Positions 1-7,682 of a stretch of 7,682 nucleotides of DNA are shown one piece after another (the first letter of the stretch is position 1; each line of letters opens with the position of its first letter). Position numbers and translations under genes: made by a program. The notes beneath the pieces were generated by a model. The model was not told where the DNA came from and did not search any database. It saw nothing but the letters and a program-made list of their open reading frames with translations. Source of the stretch: Anaerolineales bacterium (GTDB lineage: Bacteria; Chloroflexota; Anaerolineae; Promineifilales; Promineifilaceae); assembly GCA_020432595.1 (NCBI GenBank), contig JAGQGA010000246.1, positions 1 through 7,682 on the forward strand, read 5' to 3'.

Positions 1-1593
1 TTGGGGATATTGGTCGGCCAGCCGCTGGCGATACCAGTCAAAGGCGAATAAATTGCTGTCCACCAGCAGTAAATCGGGTCGCTGCTGTTCGGCGTGGTGG
101 AAATACCACAGGGTGAAAATGGTGGCATCGCCGGGGGTAAGCAGCACGGCGTTGGCTGGGGCATGAGTAAAAATCTCGCCTACGGCCGGCCGCAGGGAAA
201 TAGGTTCGGCTGGTGGCTGGACGATGTGGGCGGCAAGCAAAAATAATGGCACGCAAAGGCGCAAAGACGCAAAGGAGACGCTTTTTCTTTGCGCCTTTGC
301 GCCTTGGCGTGAAATCCCCTCCATCCCAGCGGCCAAAGGGAAGGTGAGCAGCAGCAGAGTGGGCAGCAGCAGCACGTGGGCATCGGGGGTGGCGTAGGTG
401 AGGGCGTGGATGAGGGTGAGAACGGCCGTTAATAACGACAAAAGAAAAATTGTACCCATGTCATTTCGAGGTCTTCCGAGAAATCCTGTTGGTGTTGGCA
501 AAGGGTATGGTATTTCTCCTCGAAGACTCGTCGAAATGACATGTTTCTGTCCCCATGCGATCAACGGCAACCCCAGCCAACTAAACTGCACGGCCAACAG
601 TTGCCCCCAATCCGCCAGCCGCTGGGTTAGATCGGACAGGGAGAGGGCGAACAGGTTAGCGCGGTAAATCTGGCCGCTGACCAGCCACCACCAGCCGCCC
701 ACCGTGTTTGGCTGTCCCCAAACGATGGGGCTGGCGGGGCGTGCCAGCCAGGGGAGAGCTAGTAGGGGGGTGAGACCGAGGACGAAGCCGAGGAGGGATT
801 TGAACCGCAGAGGGCGCAAAGGGCGCGGAGTTTTTTTTGTGTCTGTCCAGATGTCTTTCCCGCGAAAGCGGGAATCCAGTTGGGCGGCGGATGGATACCC
901 GCTTTCGCGGGTATGACACTCTTTTGAGTAACGATCTTGGACACTGCCAATATCGTTTCTCTTTTCTTTTTCTTTCTTTGCGCCCTCCGCGTCCTCTGCG
1001 GTTAATTCTTCCCAAATGCGCCACCCAACCAAAGGCAGCAGCAGCAGCGAAGTGGCGTGGGTGGTGAGGGAGAGGGCGAAGAGGAGGGTGGTTTGAAACA
1101 ACGGCCGTTTTTTCACCACCGCCCAAACCACTGCCGCCACCGCCAGCAAATTCAGCCCGTATACCTCGGTGATGGTGGCTTGGCTCCAGACGAGGGGAGC
1201 GAAGGCGAGGGTGAGGCTGGCGGCGAGGCTGGTTGAACGGGAGAAGTGGGTGCGGAGGGTAACGGCTGTTAATCCCACCGCCGCCGCCGCTGCCACTGCC
1301 GAAAACAGGTTGAAGCGGTAGGCCATTGTGCCGATGGGGAGCAGGCTAAACAGCTTGCCCAGCAGCACATAGGTCGGGTAGCCGGTGGGGTGCGGCACGC
1401 CCAGGGTCACGCTGGCGGCAATCAGTTCGCCGCCGTCGCCGCCGTAGCTGCGCCAGGTGAGGTCGGGCGCGAGTGTCAGCAGGTAGACAAGCAGGGCGGT
1501 GGAGCCAGCCAGCAGGCCGGGGTGGGTGAGGATATGGGGGAAAACGGCCGTTTTCCCCCGCCCCTTAGCTTCCCGCGCCATAGACCCGATCAT
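1..1593 (-). CDS. DUF2723 family (TMEM260/PMT-like) membrane glycosyltransferase, N-terminal 531 codons; runs off the left edge
   Basis: The frame from ATG 1593-1591 stays open to base 1, checked triplet by triplet for stops. The N-terminal third matches DUF2723: GGDGGELIAAS (residues 51-61, with acidic D53 and E56), GVPHPTGYP (65-73), YRFNLFSA (92-99) and WSQATITEVYGLN (136-148). A later PWLARPASPIVWG stretch and a WWWLVSGQIYR stretch near 302-311 also fit. Many hydrophobic helices are visible, for example around 95-112, 120-136, 170-190, 265-286 and 382-425. DUF2723 proteins are related to TMEM260 and protein O-mannosyltransferases, so the likely role is transfer of sugar from a lipid-linked donor outside the membrane; the acceptor is unknown. 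The start overlaps the previous stop (ATGA, 1590-1593) and has a good ribosome binding site. Three palindromic repeat elements lie in frame at residues 198-264, 351-379 and 428-448, without any frameshift. Family call is strong; substrate is inference. Confidence 0.85.
   Translation of the reverse strand, partial: MIGSMAREAKGRGKTAVFPHILTHPGLLAGSTALLVYLLTLAPDLTWRSYGGDGGELIAASVTLGVPHPTGYPTYVLLGKLFSLLPIGTMAYRFNLFSAVAAAAAVGLTAVTLRTHFSRSTSLAASLTLAFAPLVWSQATITEVYGLNLLAVAAVVWAVVKKRPLFQTTLLFALSLTTHATSLLLLPLVGWRIWEELTAEDAEGAKKEKEKRNDIGSVQDRYSKECHTRESGYPSAAQLDSRFRGKDIWTDTKKTPRPLRPLRFKSLLGFVLGLTPLLALPWLARPASPIVWGQPNTVGGWWWLVSGQIYRANLFALSLSDLTQRLADWGQLLAVQFSWLGLPLIAWGQKHVISTSLRGEIPYPLPTPTGFLGRPRNDMGTIFLLSLLTAVLTLIHALTYATPDAHVLLLPTLLLLTFPLAAGMEGISRQGAKAQRKSVSFASLRLCVPLFLLAAHIVQPPAEPISLRPAVGEIFTHAPANAVLLTPGDATIFTLWYFHHAEQQRPDLLLVDSNLFAFDWYRQRLADQYPQ
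250..311. repeat. Palindromic element A (GCGCAAAG-type) inside the DUF2723 gene
   Basis: Two 26-base arms (250-275 and 286-311) are inverted copies with 3 mismatches around a 10-base spacer. Each arm is built from CGCAAAG-type units. Motifs of this kind are, from memory, frequent dispersed repeats in many bacterial genomes. The element is read in frame as residues 428-448 of the DUF2723 protein (QGAKAQRKSVSFASLRLCV plus flanks). It contains no stop in any of the three minus-strand frames. The exact ends are uncertain by a base or two. Confidence 0.85.
457..543. repeat. Palindromic element B (CATGTCATTTCGA ends) inside the DUF2723 gene
   Basis: A perfect 13-bp terminal inverted repeat (457-469, CATGTCATTTCGA; 531-543, its complement) encloses imperfect inner arms (AGAAATCC against GGTATTTCT) and a central loop. 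The length is 87 bp, exactly 29 codons. It is read in frame as residues 351-379 (HVISTSLRGEIPYPL and onward), between two hydrophobic segments of the DUF2723 protein. The TGTCATTTCGA terminus resembles, from memory, dispersed repeats of other bacteria. Confidence 0.88.
803..1003. repeat. Composite element C (AACCGCAGAG ends) inside the DUF2723 gene
   Basis: A 10-bp terminal inverted repeat (803-812 AACCGCAGAG; 994-1003 CTCTGCGGTT) bounds 201 bp, exactly 67 codons. Next to the ends, GGCGCAAAG-like and GGCGCGGAG-like modules occur on both sides, but in swapped order. The element carries an inner hairpin pair (separate entry), an eight-T run (831-838) and a pyrimidine tract (954-978). It encodes residues 198-264 of the DUF2723 protein in frame, and all three minus-strand frames are open across essentially its whole length. 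Confidence 0.85.
853..917. repeat. Inner hairpin pair nested in element C (CCCGCGAAAGCGGG type)
   Basis: Two hairpins stand side by side. TTCCCGC-GAAA-GCGGGAA (857-874) has a 7-bp stem. ATACCCGC-TTTC-GCGGGTAT (895-914) has an 8-bp stem. The hairpins are also nearly complementary to each other, with TCCA and TGGA flanking the centre and GTC and GAC at the outside, so the whole makes a larger palindrome. The sequence resembles widely dispersed REP-like or dRS3-like repeats (CCCGCGAAAGCGGGAATCC), from memory. It appears to have been inserted into, or captured by, the outer element. Confidence 0.8.
1536..1559. repeat. Perfect 24-bp palindrome centred on an AACGGCCGTT copy
   Basis: The AACGGCCGTT at 1543-1552 is flanked by GGGGGAA and TTCCCCC, so 24 bases are exactly self-complementary. 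It sits 11 codons into the DUF2723 gene (GKTAVFP) and could form a strong hairpin near the start of that reading frame. Confidence 0.9.
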
Positions 1594-3161
1594 CGCGCAC
1601 CCTCCCCTTTGATCACCGCCGGAATCGTTTGCAGCAAAATAAGCAGGTCGCGCCCCAGCGAATAATGGTCAATATAGGCTAATTCTAACTGCACCCGCTG
1701 ATCCAGCGACAAATTGCCCCGCCCACTCACCTGCATCGGGCCGGTGATGCCAGGCTTGACGGCCAAACGGCGACGGTGCCAGTCGTTGTAAAACTGCGCC
1801 AGCCGCAGCTCTTCGGGGCGGGGGCCAACGAGACTCATTTCCCCTTTGAGGACGTTCCAAAATTGAGGCAACTCGTCCAGGCTCCAGCGGCGCAGCCAGC
1901 GGCCAACGCGGGTCAGGCGGGGGTCGTCAAGCCGCTTGGGGGGCGGTTCGGGTGACTGCGGCTGTTCAGCCATCGTTTCGGCGTTGACGTGCATGGAGCG
2001 GAATTTGTAGACGGTAAACGGCCGTCCCCCTTGCCCCACGCGCTGCTGCCGGAAAATGACGGGGCCGGGTGAGTCGAGTTTGATGGCTAAAGCAAGAATG
2101 GGGATCATAACGGCCGTTAATAATAACCCAAACACGCTGCCCACAATATCAAGAAACCGTTTAAAAAGATAATTTGGCCCGGAAATAGTATTGGTCGCGG
2201 CGCTGCCACGCGGGTTTTGCCGGTAAACCAGCCCGCAGCCGTAGCCCGCACCCAATGCCAAAGCGCGAGCGGCCAGCAGCAGCGGTGAGGTCAGCGCCAC
2301 AATGCGGTCTTTGCCCCATGCTTTGGCAACAAAAGGTAGGGTGGTGAGCAAAAAGGTGAGCAGTACCCCGCCCGTGAGCAAGGCTGCCCACGGCGTGAGC
2401 AGGAGCAGGGGCAGGGTCGCAAGCAGCAGCCCCATCAGCCCCATTTGCAGCTTCATCACCTGCGGCGTGTGCGAATCTTTAACCCCGTGCTGGGGGAAGC
2501 GGCGCACAACCTGGGCTTTCCAGTAGCCGATGATGGCCTTTTTGCGGATGTAGCGGGCAAGGGTGTGGCTGTGGCGGTGGACAACAACGGCCGTTGGTTG
2601 GAACACCATTTTGTATCCTCGCGCCGCCAGCCGGAAAGAAAGCTCTTGGTCTTCGAGGTAAGGGAACTGTTCGTCAAAGCCGTCGTTTGCCAACAGCACG
2701 TCGCGGCGGTAGGCGGCGGAGTAGGTGTCAATAAAGTCAATGGTTGGTTGCTGCGCCAGCAGATCATATTTGTCTTCGTATTCAAGCTGGACAAAGCGGG
2801 CAACAAGCTGGGACTGCTGGGTGGCGTAGCTGCCTTTGGCGGCCACCAGATTGGGGTCGGTAAAGGGGGCGATTAATTCGCGTAGCCAGTTTGGCGCGGG
2901 AATGCAGTCGGCATCGGTGCAACAGACGATGGTGCCGTTGGCGGCGCGGATGCCGCTGTTGCGGGCGGCGGCGGGGCGACCACGCGACCGTTTGATGATG
3001 GTGACACCACATTGTTGGGCAAGAACGGCCGTTTCGTCCGTCGAGCCATCATCCACCACAATAATCTCATACGGCTCCGTAAACGCCTGCTGCTGCAACG
3101 CCTGCACACAAGCCACAATGGTAGCCGCAGCATTATAAGCAGGAACAACAACCGAGATCAT
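1590..3161 (-). CDS. GT2 glycosyltransferase fused to polyprenyl-phosphate sugar-1-phosphate transferase (WcaJ/PglC type)
   Basis: This 523-residue protein carries two enzymes. Residues 1-230 are a GT-A family 2 transferase: VPAYN near 6-10, VVDDGS (35-40), the DxD-like CTDADC (81-86) and YLEDQELSFR (168-177). Three hydrophobic segments follow (about 238-256, 258-279, 288-312). Residues 333-523 are a monotopic phosphoglycosyl transferase (bacterial sugar transferase, PF02397): FKRFLD (333-338), a hydrophobic reentrant helix with Pro354, DSPGPVIFRQQRVG (363-376), KFRSM (386-390), the catalytic Asp-Glu pair D429-E430 in SLDELPQFWNV, SLVGPRP (443-449) and PGITGPMQVSGR (470-481). By family, the C-terminal half moves sugar-1-phosphate from a nucleotide sugar to undecaprenyl phosphate, and the GT2 half adds a further sugar. 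The sugars cannot be read from sequence. ATG 3161 overlaps the upstream stop (ATGA) and no Shine-Dalgarno sequence precedes it, so translation probably depends on coupling. Confidence 0.93.
   Translation of the reverse strand: MISVVVPAYNAAATIVACVQALQQQAFTEPYEIIVVDDGSTDETAVLAQQCGVTIIKRSRGRPAAARNSGIRAANGTIVCCTDADCIPAPNWLRELIAPFTDPNLVAAKGSYATQQSQLVARFVQLEYEDKYDLLAQQPTIDFIDTYSAAYRRDVLLANDGFDEQFPYLEDQELSFRLAARGYKMVFQPTAVVVHRHSHTLARYIRKKAIIGYWKAQVVRRFPQHGVKDSHTPQVMKLQMGLMGLLLATLPLLLLTPWAALLTGGVLLTFLLTTLPFVAKAWGKDRIVALTSPLLLAARALALGAGYGCGLVYRQNPRGSAATNTISGPNYLFKRFLDIVGSVFGLLLTAVMIPILALAIKLDSPGPVIFRQQRVGQGGRPFTVYKFRSMHVNAETMAEQPQSPEPPPKRLDDPRLTRVGRWLRRWSLDELPQFWNVLKGEMSLVGPRPEELRLAQFYNDWHRRRLAVKPGITGPMQVSGRGNLSLDQRVQLELAYIDHYSLGRDLLILLQTIPAVIKGEGAR
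1601..1605 (-). promoter_or_regulatory. Ribosome binding site of the DUF2723 gene
   Basis: GGAGG on the minus strand lies 7 bases before ATG 1593, inside the last codons of the sugar-transferase gene. It supports this start and independent loading in addition to coupling through the ATGA overlap. Confidence 0.75.
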
Positions 3162-4222
3162 GATGACTGATGACCGATTACCGATGACTGATTACCGCTT
3201 CCCGACCACCGCCAGCGGGTGCGCGTGGCGGCAATGCTGCCCAGAATGATTTGCGGCAGCATCACCACCAAATGGAAAGCAATCGAATAACCAACCACGG
3301 CCGCTTCGTTGGGAGCATTGAGGCTGAGGAGCAGCAGAGCGGCAGCGCTGTTGAACACGCCAATTTTGGCGGGGGTGCTGGGCGGTGTGGTGACGACGCT
3401 GACGACAACATGCATCAAGGTGCCTTCCAGCAGACCAAACGGCAGATTAAAGGCCGGGAAAAGGACGGCCGGTAAAATGGCGGCCAGCAGCGCGACGATG
3501 ATTGAGGAGCCAACTAGCAGCAGCGACAGGCGCGGGCTGCGGAGGGCGGCCAGCCCTTCTAGCCCATCAACGGCGACATGCAGCAGCCGCTGGCCGATGG
3601 CGGCGGGCAGTTTGGCAAAAAGCCAGCGCAGCGTGCGGATGACCCAGCTTGTTTGGTAGGCCAGCAGATAGAGAACCAACAGCAAAAAGAAGGCGATGGT
3701 GCCTACCAGGGTGCTAGGGTTGCCGACAAAATCGGGCAGGACGACAAGGGGGAGGATGATGACGATGGTGGCGGCAAAGAAGATGAGATCGAGGGTTTTT
3801 TCGACGACAAGGGTGCCGAGGGCGCGGGCTTTGCTGATTTCGGTTTGCTGGTGCAGGGCGTAGATGCGGGCGATTTCGCCGAGGCGGAGGAAGGGGATGA
3901 TGAGGTTGACGTATTGGCCTAGCATCATAGCCCAAAAGAGGGGCATGAAGGGGGGCGGGGCTGTGTCTGGGGTTGCCAGCAGCAGTTGCCAACGCCAATT
4001 TTTAACCCAAAGGGTGGCAAGCATGATGAACAGGGCAAGCAGGATGTAGCTGAAATGGGCGTGGATGAGGGTGTCGCCGATGTCGGCCAGGGTGACGTTG
4101 CGGGCGATGAACCAGAGACCAACGGCTGTTAATCCCAACGTCAGCAGCCAATTCAGCCATTGCCAGAGCCGCCGCGAGGCTGAGGGAGGGGGTGGGGGAG
4201 CGGTTTGTTTTTCGGCCAACAT
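3158..4222 (-). CDS. Flippase-like integral membrane protein (UPF0104 / LPG synthase TM domain family)
   Basis: The 354-residue protein has a short Pro-rich cytosolic N-terminus (PPPPPSASRR) and about eight hydrophobic segments. The first spans roughly 24-41, with others near 57-74, 145-163, 172-189, 235-256, 290-302 and 310-330. Family landmarks are KNWRWQLLL (74-82), GQYVNLIIPFLRLGEIARIYAL (102-123), LGTLVVEKTLDL (135-146) and PPSTPAKIGVFNSAAALL (280-297), which corresponds to the conserved 'PGGLGVFE' region. Members share the transmembrane domain of MprF, where it flips lipid; many stand beside glycosyltransferases and have unknown substrates. Here it lies directly between the C25 peptidase and the lipid-linked sugar transferase, so a role in glycolipid translocation is plausible but inferred. 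ATG 4222 is chosen over the in-frame TTG at 4225 because GGAAGGA lies 9 bases upstream. The last ten residues or so (NQSSVIGHQSS) are encoded by a heptamer tandem repeat. Confidence 0.88.
   Translation of the reverse strand: MLAEKQTAPPPPPSASRRLWQWLNWLLTLGLTAVGLWFIARNVTLADIGDTLIHAHFSYILLALFIMLATLWVKNWRWQLLLATPDTAPPPFMPLFWAMMLGQYVNLIIPFLRLGEIARIYALHQQTEISKARALGTLVVEKTLDLIFFAATIVIILPLVVLPDFVGNPSTLVGTIAFFLLLVLYLLAYQTSWVIRTLRWLFAKLPAAIGQRLLHVAVDGLEGLAALRSPRLSLLLVGSSIIVALLAAILPAVLFPAFNLPFGLLEGTLMHVVVSVVTTPPSTPAKIGVFNSAAALLLLSLNAPNEAAVVGYSIAFHLVVMLPQIILGSIAATRTRWRWSGSGNQSSVIGHQSS
3163..3197. repeat. Heptamer tandem repeat at the flippase/sugar-transferase junction
   Basis: Five 7-bp units lie in a row: ATGACTG, ATGACCG, ATTACCG, ATGACTG, ATTACCG (consensus AT[G/T]AC[T/C]G). 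They encode the last residues (about NQSSVIGHQSS) of the flippase-like protein and lie directly before the ATGA overlap that starts the sugar-transferase gene. They resemble the short tandemly repeated heptamers (STRR) described in cyanobacteria. Confidence 0.8.
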
Positions 4223-4228
4223 CAAACT

Positions 4229-6331
4229 TTATCCTTCCGGCCGCACAATGTGGGCGCTGGGGTCGCCAAAGAGGGCAAAGGTGTCGCTGATCTCGCGCAG
4301 CCCGTCGTTGTTGGCAACATCCAGCGACAGCTTGGCCGCTTGAAACGCATCCCCCATGCGGCTGACGGCTGGGTCTTGCAACTGTTGGTAGAGGCTGGTG
4401 GCAAACGGCTCCTGGTGGGTGGAAAGGGTAAGGCTGGTGGCACCGACCAGCAGCACGGGGCCGTTTTTGTGGCGCAGCATCGTTTCCGAAAGGGAGGTTT
4501 GCTGCGGGTGGGCAAAGAGGCCGCTGAGGCAGGTAAGCTGGACGACGATGGGGGGCGTGGTGGCGGTTAGGTCGTTGACAGCATCGAGAGTGAACACATC
4601 GTCCTTGCCCCATTGGGACAAGCTGCCGTGGCCGACGTAGCTGGTGAGCCAGCCCCCGTTGTTCCAGGCGGCGGTGACTTCGCTGGCGGCGGGGCCGTTG
4701 AGAATGGAAACGGTGGCAGCGTCTAGGCCGCTATTGTCGGTAAGCTGCTGGGCAATTTGGGCGAATTGGGGTTCGGTGCCGTCGGTGGCAAAGAGGATGC
4801 GGTTAACGGCCGTTTCTCCCTCATACGCCAACGTCCGCGCCACCAACTCCTCCACCTCAGCCACCGTGGAGACCGGCCAGCGGCCAACGGCCAAATCGGG
4901 GCGTGTGTCGTTGTCTATATCGGCCAGGCGGGAGTCGCTGACCGTTTCGCCGCTAAACTGGACGGGAACCATGAGGGAAGGAACATTATTTCCAGGGGCT
5001 AAACCCAGGTAGTTGCGGTAGTCAGAGGTGGCATCGCCGACGATAAAGAGATAGCGGGGATGGGGTTCGGCCCATTGGGTGGCGGCGTAGCGCACAAAGG
5101 CGTGGATGCTTTCGGGCGAGGCGGCTCCGTCGCCAAAGGCATCGTAAATTTCGGCGGTGGTGGCAACGGCTACGGCCAGCCCTTCGGCCTGCCGCGCCTC
5201 TACCAACGAAGCCAGCGCCGGGGCAAGTTGGTCGGTGGTGACAATGAGCAGGTCAGCCTGGTTGCTGCTGTCGCGCCAGGTGGATTGGCGCACGGGTTCA
5301 ATGCTGGCTGGTTTTTGGAAACCGACGGGACCAACGGCGAGGATGTGGTCGCTGGGGGTGACGGTGAGGGAAACGGCCGTTTCCCCCTCGCTGGTAAGCT
5401 GCTGCGGTTGGGCGGGGTTGGTGATGTCGAGCAGAACGGGGTCGCCGCTGAAGCCGGTGAGGGTGAGGGTGCCGCTGGTTTGGCTGAATTGCAGGCGGTC
5501 ATTAACGGCCGTTGGCGGCGTGGCGTAGGTCAATTCCACCCAATTAAGCTGCACCACATCCAAAAAAGAAGCCCCTTCAGGGGTGTTGTCCAGCAGCAGT
5601 TCGTTGTCGCCCGTTTTAAGCTGGCCGCTGGGGATGGGGATGGTGTCGGTGAAGACGGTTTGGCCGTCGAAGCGGACGGTGGCGAGAGGTTGCCCGTTGA
5701 GCCATAAATCGAGGTCGTGGTCGTTTTCTACCTGGGGGTTGCGGGTGACACCGCGCAGTTGCAGCCGCAGTTCGGCCGGGGCATCGCTGAGGCTGGGTAG
5801 GTTGAGGGTGACGGGCAGGCTGCTTTGCTGTGGAATTTCTTGCCAATACCAGAGGTCAATGCCCTGGCTGGTGGCTTCGGCGGCGTAGAGGTGGTTTTCT
5901 TCGAGAAAAAGGGTTTGGCGAATCTCGCTGACGGGCGGGGCATCGTCGCGGCTGACGGGGCGCTGGTTGATGAGCGTGCCGGGGTGTCCGATTTCCAGCA
6001 GGTAGGGGCGTTGGGCGGTGTAGCGGTCGCTGGGGGCTTGGCCGTAGAAGATGAGGCTGTCGTCGTGGAGGAGGTAGGGAACGGCCGTTTCCCCCGTTCG
6101 CAGCCGCAGGTTGTCGCTGTCCCACGTTTCCAGCATGAACTCGGCCTGCGCCAATTCGTCGCGGGTGAGGCGGTACACGCCATCATGGTCAACCAGGATT
6201 TTGACGATGCCGCTGGCCGCTTCGCCAATGGCGACCGGAGTTTGCGGGCGCATGAGCCAAAAGGCAGCAAACGCTGCGCCCGCCCCCAGGATAAGGCTGC
6301 CGGTCAGAATGAGCGCCGTTTTGCGGGTCAT
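4229..6331 (-). CDS. Membrane-anchored C25 (gingipain-type) cysteine peptidase
   Basis: The 700-residue protein opens with a hydrophobic segment (about 5-27) that is either a signal peptide or an uncleaved anchor. Residues 40-350 are beta-rich with no clear catalytic motif. This part resembles the N-terminal propeptide and jelly-roll-like region seen before C25 domains (for example LDLWLNGQPLATVRFDGQ, 207-224). The peptidase domain covers about 360-695: FIVGDATSDYRNYL (429-442), DIDNDTRPDLAVGRWPV (471-487), catalytic His568 in YVGHGS and catalytic Cys601 in QLTCLSG. It ends at LFGDPSAHI, the usual C25 terminus, with no added sorting domain. C25 enzymes are clan CD, caspase-like; the family includes gingipains and PorU, which joins secreted proteins to lipopolysaccharide. 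ATG 6331 is chosen because it makes an ATGA overlap and is followed at once by the signal segment. GETAV occurs three times (80-84, 316-320, 505-509), each encoded by AACGGCCGTT. Confidence 0.92.
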   Translation of the reverse strand: MTRKTALILTGSLILGAGAAFAAFWLMRPQTPVAIGEAASGIVKILVDHDGVYRLTRDELAQAEFMLETWDSDNLRLRTGETAVPYLLHDDSLIFYGQAPSDRYTAQRPYLLEIGHPGTLINQRPVSRDDAPPVSEIRQTLFLEENHLYAAEATSQGIDLWYWQEIPQQSSLPVTLNLPSLSDAPAELRLQLRGVTRNPQVENDHDLDLWLNGQPLATVRFDGQTVFTDTIPIPSGQLKTGDNELLLDNTPEGASFLDVVQLNWVELTYATPPTAVNDRLQFSQTSGTLTLTGFSGDPVLLDITNPAQPQQLTSEGETAVSLTVTPSDHILAVGPVGFQKPASIEPVRQSTWRDSSNQADLLIVTTDQLAPALASLVEARQAEGLAVAVATTAEIYDAFGDGAASPESIHAFVRYAATQWAEPHPRYLFIVGDATSDYRNYLGLAPGNNVPSLMVPVQFSGETVSDSRLADIDNDTRPDLAVGRWPVSTVAEVEELVARTLAYEGETAVNRILFATDGTEPQFAQIAQQLTDNSGLDAATVSILNGPAASEVTAAWNNGGWLTSYVGHGSLSQWGKDDVFTLDAVNDLTATTPPIVVQLTCLSGLFAHPQQTSLSETMLRHKNGPVLLVGATSLTLSTHQEPFATSLYQQLQDPAVSRMGDAFQAAKLSLDVANNDGLREISDTFALFGDPSAHIVRPEG
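4232..4238 (-). promoter_or_regulatory. Ribosome binding site of the flippase-like gene
   Basis: GGAAGGA on the minus strand lies 9 bases before ATG 4222, overlapping the end of the C25 peptidase gene. It favours ATG 4222, although TTG 4225 at 6 bases cannot be excluded. Confidence 0.65.
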
Positions 6332-7377
6332 GGTTCTCGCTTGCGGGTAAAGAGAATGATGGAGCCAAGAACGGCGGCGGCAAACAGGATCATGGCGGCG
6401 ATAAAGCCCCCCCACAGATAGAAGGTGCTGAGCCGCGCTTCGGCCGGCTGGGGGTCGGTTTGCTGGGGCGCGCTGGGTGGAACGAGGGTGCGGCCGATGA
6501 TGATGGGAGCGGCTTTGCCCGTTGGGGCGTTGTTTTGGGCGATGGCGACGGGTTGCTCGGCACTGGGCTGGTCGGCGGCGGGGAGGGGATTAACGGCCGT
6601 TTCCTCCACCGCCGCTTCCTCCGTGCTATCATTTGCCAGCCCTGCCGCCTGAGCCAAGGCCGCCCCGAAATTTTCGGCCAACAGGGTGGGGGCAATGACG
6701 ATGGCGCTGTCGCTGCTGCCATTGTCGTTACCATTGTCTGGCTCTACCGGAGCCAGGGTAGGTAGGGAGGGGACGAAAAAGGGTTGGTTGGTGGCGGTGG
6801 GTAATGCGGGCTGGTCGGTGGCAGTGGGTTGTGGGGTGCTGGTGGGAACGGCCGTTGCTGCCACAGTCGTTGCCGTAGGACGCGGTGTATTGGTAGCAGC
6901 CGTGGTGTTGGTAGGTTGTGGCGTGGCGGTAGGCTGGCCGTTATTGCCGCCACCCAGCGGGATGGGGGTGTTGGTGGGCGTTAGAGAGACGGTGAAGGTG
7001 AGTTCCCGCATGACGTGTTCTTCGGAACTGGTGGTGATTTCCAGCAGTTGGTAGACGTAGGTTTGGCCGGAAACGGCCGTTGTGTCGGTGTAGGTGTACT
7101 CTGCTCCCTGCGAAAAGTCACCGACAGCGGGGATGATGGGGCTGATGGCGGTGAAGTTGCCCCCCTGGCCGCGCTTGAGAATAAATCCGGCTGTGTCCTG
7201 CTCCGATTGGGTGTCCCAGTCAGCGCGGACATGGATGGTGTTGTTGTAGGAAACGGCCGTTAGGGTGAAATCACCCAACGTCACCGCCATTGGCTCCTCG
7301 CCGCTGACTGGCTTAATAACCGCTCCGCTCCAGACAACAACCAAAGCCAGAAAAATTACAAAAATTGTTTTCTGCAT
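6328..7377 (-). CDS. Secreted type I membrane protein: Fn3-like domain, Pro/Thr-rich mucin-like stalk, C-terminal anchor
   Basis: The 349-residue protein has a signal peptide (about 1-26, MQKTIFVIFLALVVVWSG). Residues 32-131 form an Fn3-like beta domain with the pattern VRADWDTQSEQDTAGFILKR (50-69) and YTYTDTTAVSGQTYVYQLLE (94-113). This form is, from memory, common in Chloroflexota surface proteins. A low-complexity stalk rich in Thr, Pro and Ala follows (132-210, for example PTATPQPTNTTAATNTPRPT), then an Asn/Asp/Ala-rich stretch. Near the end is one transmembrane helix (about 319-343) with a short basic tail, FTRKREP, so the bulk of the protein should be outside. The stalk is a good candidate for dense O-glycosylation, and the operon encodes a PMT-like enzyme; this link is inference. 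No LPXTG or clear PEP-CTERM motif is seen. The start lies 11 bases after the previous stop with only a weak, distant GGAGA. No specific function is recognised. Confidence 0.85.
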   Translation of the reverse strand: MQKTIFVIFLALVVVWSGAVIKPVSGEEPMAVTLGDFTLTAVSYNNTIHVRADWDTQSEQDTAGFILKRGQGGNFTAISPIIPAVGDFSQGAEYTYTDTTAVSGQTYVYQLLEITTSSEEHVMRELTFTVSLTPTNTPIPLGGGNNGQPTATPQPTNTTAATNTPRPTATTVAATAVPTSTPQPTATDQPALPTATNQPFFVPSLPTLAPVEPDNGNDNGSSDSAIVIAPTLLAENFGAALAQAAGLANDSTEEAAVEETAVNPLPAADQPSAEQPVAIAQNNAPTGKAAPIIIGRTLVPPSAPQQTDPQPAEARLSTFYLWGGFIAAMILFAAAVLGSIILFTRKREP

Positions 7378-7388
7378 TGCTAACAGCT

Positions 7389-7682
7389 CTATCTCCGTGC
7401 GATGATTGGCAACATCAGCCGGTACTCAGCTTGAAATAGCTGCATGGCCGGGTCACCTTGCAACGTAAAACTATACAGTTCTGAATCAGCCAGGTCAAGG
7501 GCAGTATATCCCAGCTTGGCATAGAGAATGGCATCGCCGATGCGCGACAGGTGACCTTCGGTCAAGCCATCGTAGAAACCGGTGTGTAAAACGGTGTGTT
7601 CATAAGAAAGACCCAGCCCGGCAGATGACCACTGGGCAGCCACGCCACGCAAATTGTCCAGCCGCATCCACGTTTCGCTAAG
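7389..7682 (-). CDS. C-terminal 97 residues of a second C25-family peptidase; runs off the right edge
   Basis: The frame is open to the window edge, so the true start lies outside. The fragment aligns by eye with the end of the complete C25 peptidase downstream. LSETWMRL matches SLSETMLR, RIGDAILYAKLG matches RMGDAFQAAKLS, and FTLQGDPAMQLF matches FALFGDPSAHIV. These are positions that follow the catalytic cysteine, so the active-site His and Cys would both lie beyond the edge and activity cannot be judged. After the peptidase fold it ends with EYRLMLPIIARR, a short hydrophobic-basic tail absent from the other paralog. An internal ATG at 7667 exists, but nothing suggests it is a start because homology continues before it. 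The stop is 11 bases before the stalk-protein gene, so the two are very likely cotranscribed. Confidence 0.75.
   Translation of the reverse strand, partial: LSETWMRLDNLRGVAAQWSSAGLGLSYEHTVLHTGFYDGLTEGHLSRIGDAILYAKLGYTALDLADSELYSFTLQGDPAMQLFQAEYRLMLPIIARR

Follow-up and report, generated by a model that had tools for sequence, protein, structure and literature searches.

The 7,682-nt stretch of Anaerolineales contig JAGQGA010000246.1 studied here (the window, meaning the whole stretch) carries at positions 1–1593 of the reverse strand a GT-C-like glycosyltransferase gene (PF11028, TMEM260-like/DUF2723), which is truncated by the window edge at base 1. As proposed in a preliminary description of the window, three palindromes, elements A (250–311), B (457–543) and C (803–1003), lie within its single open frame of 531 codons. 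With a probability of roughly 0.8, we regard them as dispersed non-autonomous palindromic repeats, resembling repetitive extragenic palindromes (REPs) or miniature inverted-repeat transposable elements (MITEs), that were inserted successively into loops of a functional gene. This would place in-frame palindromic insertions in several unrelated enzymes of uncultured Chloroflexota with genomes of several megabases.

Element A spans 62 bp, which is not a multiple of three; 26 of its 31 end-to-end pairs match, and it encodes about residues 428–448 of the product (SRQGAKAQRKSVSFASLRLCV). Element B is an 87-bp palindrome (TGTCATTTCGA...TCGAAATGACA, about residues 351–379) made of two head-out CGTC-like hairpin units, while element C is a 201-bp composite (about residues 197–264), in which an outer inverted repeat with arms at 803–826 (AACCGCAGAGGGCGCAAAGGGCGC) and 980–1003 (GCGCCCTCCGCGTCCTCTGCGGTT) encloses an inner dimer at 852–918. 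As had been observed, B and C are exact multiples of three. The best 40–94-bp stretch of the gene has 19 of its 20 outer bases self-complementary, compared with 14–17 in eight dinucleotide shuffles, and Rfam gave no match at the gathering threshold. The A and C outer arms share CGC[AG][AG]AG octamers (GCGCAAAG-like) that are T-free on one strand; judged by these, A and the outer part of C belong to one superfamily, with the working name octamer-arm palindromes.

The inner part of C is a dimer of the CGTC type of REP. In the excerpted text of PMC3733652 this type is defined by an unpaired CGTC, often TGTC, tag, an 8–9-bp stem starting with AT, a loop of 4–5 bases and a CCA tail. The dimer reads TGTC-TTTCCCGC-GAAA-GCGGGAAT-CCA, followed by the reverse unit TGTC-ATACCCGC-GAAA-GCGGGTAT-CCA, with the tag as TGTC at 852–855 and as GACA at 915–918. 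Its right unit agrees with the definition in stem, loop and tail, and its left unit agrees except for a mismatched first pair. The units of B, TGTC-ATTTC-GA...GA-GAAAT-CC, have the TGTC tag and the AT start, but their stem consists of 5 bp, a GA/GA interruption and a short inner stem, and the tail is only CC; B therefore appears to be related to the CGTC type, if more loosely. The preliminary description had taken A, B and C for three unrelated families. This does not hold, since A and the outer part of C have octamer arms in common, C is a composite with a CGTC-type dimer, and B resembles that same type. The three elements would be accounted for by two superfamilies and by four or more insertion events, one of which was presumably nested within an earlier one; both kinds occur side by side in one locus of a related genome (L146).

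The element sites were compared at the protein level with 120 homologues, listed of 814 above threshold, in an alignment of 121 rows. Relative to these homologues the elements are insertions: the element peptide motifs are found in three of the 120 (P0001, P0002 and P0003) and are missing from 117. At the C site the modal length is 13 residues (98 of the 121 rows) versus 78 in the window protein, at the B site 17–19 (59 rows) versus 41, and at the A site 15 (113 rows) versus 29, so that the net growth over the modal homologue is 65, 23 and 14 residues, respectively. P0001 (89% identical) carries all three elements; P0002 (76%, on a 2.9-Mb contig) has A and C only, B being absent; P0003 (98%, eight member sequences) is a fragment that begins at the end of C and has A and B. 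By parsimony, A and C appear to be older than the split from P0002 and B younger. The C insert is longer than that of the window by two residues in P0001 and shorter by three in P0002, and the frame is retained in both. Separate database searches with the C region (16 candidates, one match, P0002) and the A region (seven candidates, two matches, P0003 and P0001) were uninformative about the spread of the peptides, there being too few exact words in common.

The product of the gene matches PF11028 with an E value of 1.9e-25, and its AlphaFold (AF2) model has a mean predicted local distance difference test score (pLDDT) of 87.5 and a predicted TM-score of 0.88. Foldseek gave this model a probability of 1.00 against PglB, ArnT, OST, ALG12 and Pmt4, all at E values of at least 0.003, and thus returned no match at E ≤ 0.001. 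Hydropathy and the model agree, as the earlier description had predicted, that the inserts sit between helices: C behind the helix starting at residue 180, B behind helix 338–358, and A at the turn between helices 417–434 and 441–458. The pLDDT falls to 44–64 over residues 221–260 of C and to 53–64 over residues 361–380 of B, against 86–91 at the start of C (197–220) and about 72–91 in A. Disorder is accordingly predicted for the B peptide and for the later residues of C, with the start of C predicted to prolong a helix and the A peptide to extend a helical turn. The first large loop of GT-C enzymes faces outside, as does their C-terminal domain, which would put the C, B and A loops inside. 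The inserts are thus most likely on the cytoplasmic side, with which their positive net charges (A +5, C +4, B +1) agree; of the suggestion that they form basic cytoplasmic loops, the basic character is borne out and the location is probable from the family topology. A codon-usage score, computed in 15-codon bins and trained on 289 long open reading frames (ORFs) of related loci, is −0.2 and −0.5 at B (codons 346–375), −0.25 at A (436–450) and 0.01–0.10 over codons 211–270 of C. There is no drop in the first bin of C (196–210, 0.40), most other bins score 0.2–0.5, and low values also occur in a few bins elsewhere in the gene (e.g., 1–15 and 106–120, about 0).

Copies were counted in 52 genomes (hereafter the related genomes) of the family of G305, which is the closest by window protein among the sampled genomes. 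The A arm pattern is present in 32 of the 52 (one control match), the B arm pattern in 20 (no control match), the C-inner unit pattern in 27 (no control match) and the C-outer arm pattern in 12 (one control match). Octamer-arm elements are numerous in these genomes and occur in variants. The C-inner unit, with up to 167 matches per genome and many in opposed pairs, is a dispersed, mostly dimeric multicopy family as measured in the related genomes. A scan of the genome contigs with the window protein alone found no relative; with the alignment it found 78 loci, none of them closely related to the window (best segments 25–70% identical), and a BLAST comparison of the elements with 97 loci yielded a single 16-base match only.

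From 120 loci, 66 A-type and 47 B-type copies (113 distinct copies in all) were classified; a further 20 C-outer-type and 20 C-inner-type copies were added to these. The loci were listed by the search tool or chosen by hand and are thus a non-random sample, the A/B and C sets were scored by slightly different scripts, five of the 113 A/B copies lie too close to a contig end for a judgement of frame and were kept in the denominators, and for copies with no detected partner arm the element was taken as the pattern alone. In this sample, nine of the 66 A-type copies (two of them the same site in the leucyl-tRNA synthetase, LeuRS, of two genomes) and four of the 20 C-outer-type copies lie in frame within coding sequence, compared with none of the 47 B-type and none of the 20 C-inner-type copies. 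The difference between octamer-arm (13/86) and CGTC-like copies (0/67) is significant (Fisher p = 0.0006; 0.001 with LeuRS counted once). A B-type candidate, L102, was dropped as a 22-base pattern match with no strong palindrome inside a hydrophobic stretch; with it counted, p is 0.004.

Fourteen distinct insert-bearing ORFs were scanned against Pfam. One domain match spans the insert in a DUF2298 protein (L235), hydantoinase B (L240), an amine oxidase (L267), an aminotransferase of class I/II (L333), which we take to be HisC by its motifs, and an ABC transporter domain (ABC_tran, L334). In LeuRS (L128 and L238), a second TMEM260-like protein (L233), a polyketide synthase (L231), aconitase X (L236), a PTPS-related membrane protein (L332) and a thiamine pyrophosphate (TPP) enzyme (L327), the insert falls outside the matched domains or between them. 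Pfam gave no match for the ORFs of L137 and L256, and L256, initially an in-gene candidate, failed the later in-frame test.

The base composition of the arms offers a simple, testable explanation for the tolerance of one superfamily inside genes. T is absent from the first 31 nt of A and from the first 28 nt of C, and A is absent from the last 31 nt of A and the last 44 nt of C; because every stop codon needs both T and A, octamer arms are free of stops in all six frames. It is likely for this reason that they are found in genes. Since A is open in six of six frames, and B and C in four of six each, an open frame through the elements is weaker evidence of selection than the preliminary description had assumed: the inference from a frame kept three times is weak from the window alone, as the elements are stop-poor, and gains its support from orthologues: P0001 and P0002 keep A and C in frame, with indels of a few residues in C, and HisC carries in-frame inserts in the related genomes. 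The body of an element is therefore harmless in most frames, which leaves its length for selection to filter. Among 25 copies in related genomes that have coding sequence on both sides and no common open frame, the upstream frame (scanned from 36 nt before the element) ends before the element or at most 6 nt into it in 22, as expected between genes. With up to three of the 25 perhaps breaking a frame, binomial estimates that had assumed two at most are given no weight here.

The HisC gene shows filled and empty sites side by side. A match was found in 37 genomes and 20 orthologues were examined; in seven of these an octamer-arm insert occupies a single site, in frame, with lengths of 54, 63, 63, 69, 72, 72 and 72 bp, all multiples of three, and with AACCGC-like and GCGGTT ends. 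In G367 and G261 there is a five-residue extension with a 15-base mini-palindrome, and the remaining 11 orthologues have 30–34 residues at the insert site. Comparison of a filled with an empty site (G362 and G402) is compatible with a clean 72-bp insertion, although the GGTT end would mask a short duplication. On a 20-row tree the insert requires four changes, of which well-supported branches force only one. In the case of LeuRS, 30 loci were taken and 25 aligned, giving 24 alignable orthologues (L291 was left out); AKAQ/AEAQ/TEAQ-type peptides occupy one loop in ten of the 24 and are a single arm in all five of those ten that were read as DNA. The LeuRS of G372 has a different repeat-like peptide. 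Next to the A-type peptide, the LeuRS loop of L272 (G400) also holds another in-frame insert, about 25 residues long. Meanwhile, the C-terminus of P0002 and the LeuRS of G372 (L283) hold similar repeat-like peptides (ADERGRKTEDGGR and DERDGRRRTEDGEGR), perhaps of a further in-frame repeat family. The filled and empty sites of HisC and LeuRS across species make the fate of repeat-derived peptides, as neutral loop, new function or hairpin, open to test.

According to the preferred reading, A and C would have inserted first and B later, each moved in trans, presumably, by some enzyme. The inserts would have been tolerated because they are stop-poor, preserve the frame and lengthen inter-helix loops that most likely face the cytoplasm; purifying selection on the enzyme portion encoded downstream would then keep the frame, and the peptides themselves would be neutral. 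With a T-free 5' arm and an A-free 3' arm, the octamer-arm superfamily (A and C-outer) would be especially fit for genes. Several findings weigh against this reading. The net growth falls short of the element length for A (14 versus 21 residues) and B (23 versus 29). Homologues P0120, P0074 and P0063 have an A-site loop of 30 residues, about the window's length, with no element motif, the C-site loop of P0072 reaches 107 residues, and eight other homologues have at least 40 at the B site, so loops at the three sites evidently vary in length for other reasons too. All copies of A, B and C outside the window were counted in related genomes. Copies of A type in those genomes have on average 4.3 open frames of six (22 copies), but their dinucleotide shuffles already have 3.7, and stop-poverty is therefore mostly a matter of base composition; B-type copies have 1.7 (27 copies; shuffles 2.0). 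B is in frame in the window yet in none of its 47 related copies, and the account of stop-proof arms does not cover it. Many of the A-type in-frame copies are a single arm with no palindrome, the other three of the 25 copies mentioned above (L257, L212 and L260) have the stop inside the element and could be interrupted genes, and no mobilising enzyme for A, B or C was found in a strict scan of 50 Y1_Tnp loci. Apart from these points, some of the long B-site loops hold repeat-like peptides, e.g., HASRITHHALPIT in P0113.

A stronger version, which we put forward only tentatively, is that octamer-arm palindromes, by virtue of strand-asymmetric arms with no capacity for stops, are suited to genes, colonise the same HisC or LeuRS loop repeatedly, and stay palindromic there by site-preferring insertion or hairpin-templated renewal. 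If true, protein loops would be long-term homes of a DNA-level element. Rather less probable is that the hairpin matters and not the peptide, through a role in DNA or mRNA (supercoiling, pausing or mRNA stability), with coding copies merely compatible with translation. The arms of the HisC inserts are largely complementary across lineages, pairing well over the outer 19 positions in six of seven, and at pairs 7, 8, 16 and 17 some lineages have G-C where others have A-T (for G409 and G002 the opposite strand was read, which swaps G-T and A-C labels only). The 22 copies whose upstream frame ends ahead of them or in their first 6 nt also lie where a hairpin would act on transcripts. However, the paired changes in HisC fall at positions that vary between subfamilies (CGC[AG][AG]AG), so separate insertions would look alike; pairs 7 and 16 include mismatches, G405 pairs at the ends only and G407 and G392 over about the outer 19 positions only, and many in-gene A-type copies are one-armed.

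It is also conceivable, but improbable, that the inserts were put to use as functional loops or linkers, for instance as a basic cytoplasmic docking segment, and were retained for that. That HisC and LeuRS each use one loop repeatedly would fit, as would the conservation of A, which is 95–100% identical in P0001 (20 of 21 residues) and P0003 and 81% identical in P0002 (17 of 21), and of B, which is identical in P0003 and in P0001 (30 of 30). In contrast, C is only 60% identical to that of P0001 and 57% to that of P0002, where the remainder of the protein is 93% and 85% identical; the C peptide thus appears to have drifted, unlike A and B, which suggests relaxed constraint on it. In addition, predicted order is low for B and most of C, 117 of the 120 listed homologues have no such peptide, and the same kind of peptide turns up in unrelated host proteins. 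An assembly or binning artefact, or a decaying pseudogene, for which the truncation at the window edge might be cited, can practically be dismissed: the in-frame inserts recur in independent records (P0001, the eight member sequences of P0003, and P0002), conserved residues hold on either side of them, and P0003 continues past the end of the window to a C-terminus like that of other homologues, so that the concern raised earlier about decay beyond base 1 falls away.

In-frame palindromes as a kind are already known. Excerpted passages of PMC10969869 and PMC3733652 describe Rickettsia palindromic elements (RPE) as palindromic repeats inserted in frame in unrelated protein genes and translated as an extra peptide. 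The repeats of the window and related genomes look like a free-living counterpart of these, and the resemblance to RPE suggested in the preliminary description is upheld by in-frame insertion in conserved protein genes both here and in related genomes; the comparison was made by description. They differ in the host group, in the T-free and A-free octamer arms, and in the triple load and nested composite in one gene. Passages of PMC3733652 also class dRS3 of Neisseria and RPE-4/RPE-6 as CGTC-tagged REPs, report intragenic in-frame copies, two per ORF, and copies in tRNA synthetases, and name five phyla, among which Chloroflexi does not appear in that text. The C-inner element resembles these REPs in its TGTC tag, 8-bp stem, 4-base GAAA loop, CCA tail and dimeric form, and differs in that the dimer is nested within another palindrome; B differs by its longer, interrupted stem. 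No report of the octamer-arm family, or of in-frame palindromes in Chloroflexota, was found in the open-licence literature. Within the literature searched, the novelty lies in the host group, in an octamer-arm superfamily with stop-proof arms, in the nesting of one element within another, in a single gene bearing three insertions, and in a HisC site that is used recurrently and has mostly stayed palindromic.

With regard to mobility, A, B and C resemble bacterial MITEs, which are non-coding, in being short, dispersed and bounded by inverted repeats; neither a cognate transposase nor a clear target-site duplication was found for them. They also resemble the GTAG REPs, short dispersed hairpins associated with REP-associated tyrosine transposases (RAYTs), and RAYT-like genes with end hairpins occur in this family too, but most of the hairpins beside them differ in sequence from A, B and C. 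The strict scan of Y1_Tnp loci, which covered the 30 best and 20 chosen ones (48 distinct places from a list of over 100), found no A-, B- or C-type element, whereas a looser scan of 30 such loci for single short words gave scattered matches. Mobilisation of A and C by RAYTs is thus not supported, no copies flanking a RAYT gene having been found in the strict scan. For B the negative is less clean: a 78-bp inverted repeat beside or overlapping a RAYT-like ORF in L191 (1399–1476, G409) and L194 (1371–1448, G407) has ends, GGTCATTTCGG/CCGAAATGACC, with nine bases in common with B (GTCATTTCG/CGAAATGAC). The excerpted text of PMC3733652 presents CGTC REPs as having no dedicated transposase. Several RAYT-like ORFs bear hairpins of their own: near-perfect hairpins of 33–63 bp stand near both ends in L188, L189, L199 and L205 and near one end in L196 and L197. 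These units appear REPtron-like, with hairpins different from A, B and C.

The rest of the window, 1590–7682, is an operon-like run of overlapping or adjoining genes: a GT2-Bac_transf fusion, an LPG_synthase_TM gene, a Peptidase_C25 gene, a gene with no Pfam match, and the end of a second Peptidase_C25 gene. The C-terminus of the LPG_synthase_TM protein (3158–3195) is GNQSSVIGHQSS, which arises from near-tandem GATGACTGATTACCG-like repeats and is perhaps another repeat family translated at a C-terminus. A further perfect palindrome, AACGGCCGTT, occurs 14 times in the window (shuffle mean 0.01), at 421, 1100, 1543, 2109, 2586, 3024, 4805, 5372, 5504, 6080, 6592, 6847, 7072 and 7252; a literature search found no paper on it. 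Its core, ACGGCCGT, is found 1451 times in 1.97 Mb of the loci analysed (337 loci, overlaps included), against 26–39 times for three other GC-rich palindromes, and is absent from some Chloroflexota loci (L001, L004, L012 and L044). This abundance is presumably comparable to that of the HIP1 palindrome of cyanobacteria. Thirteen of the 14 copies in the window stand in one reading phase, reading x-Thr-Ala-Val.

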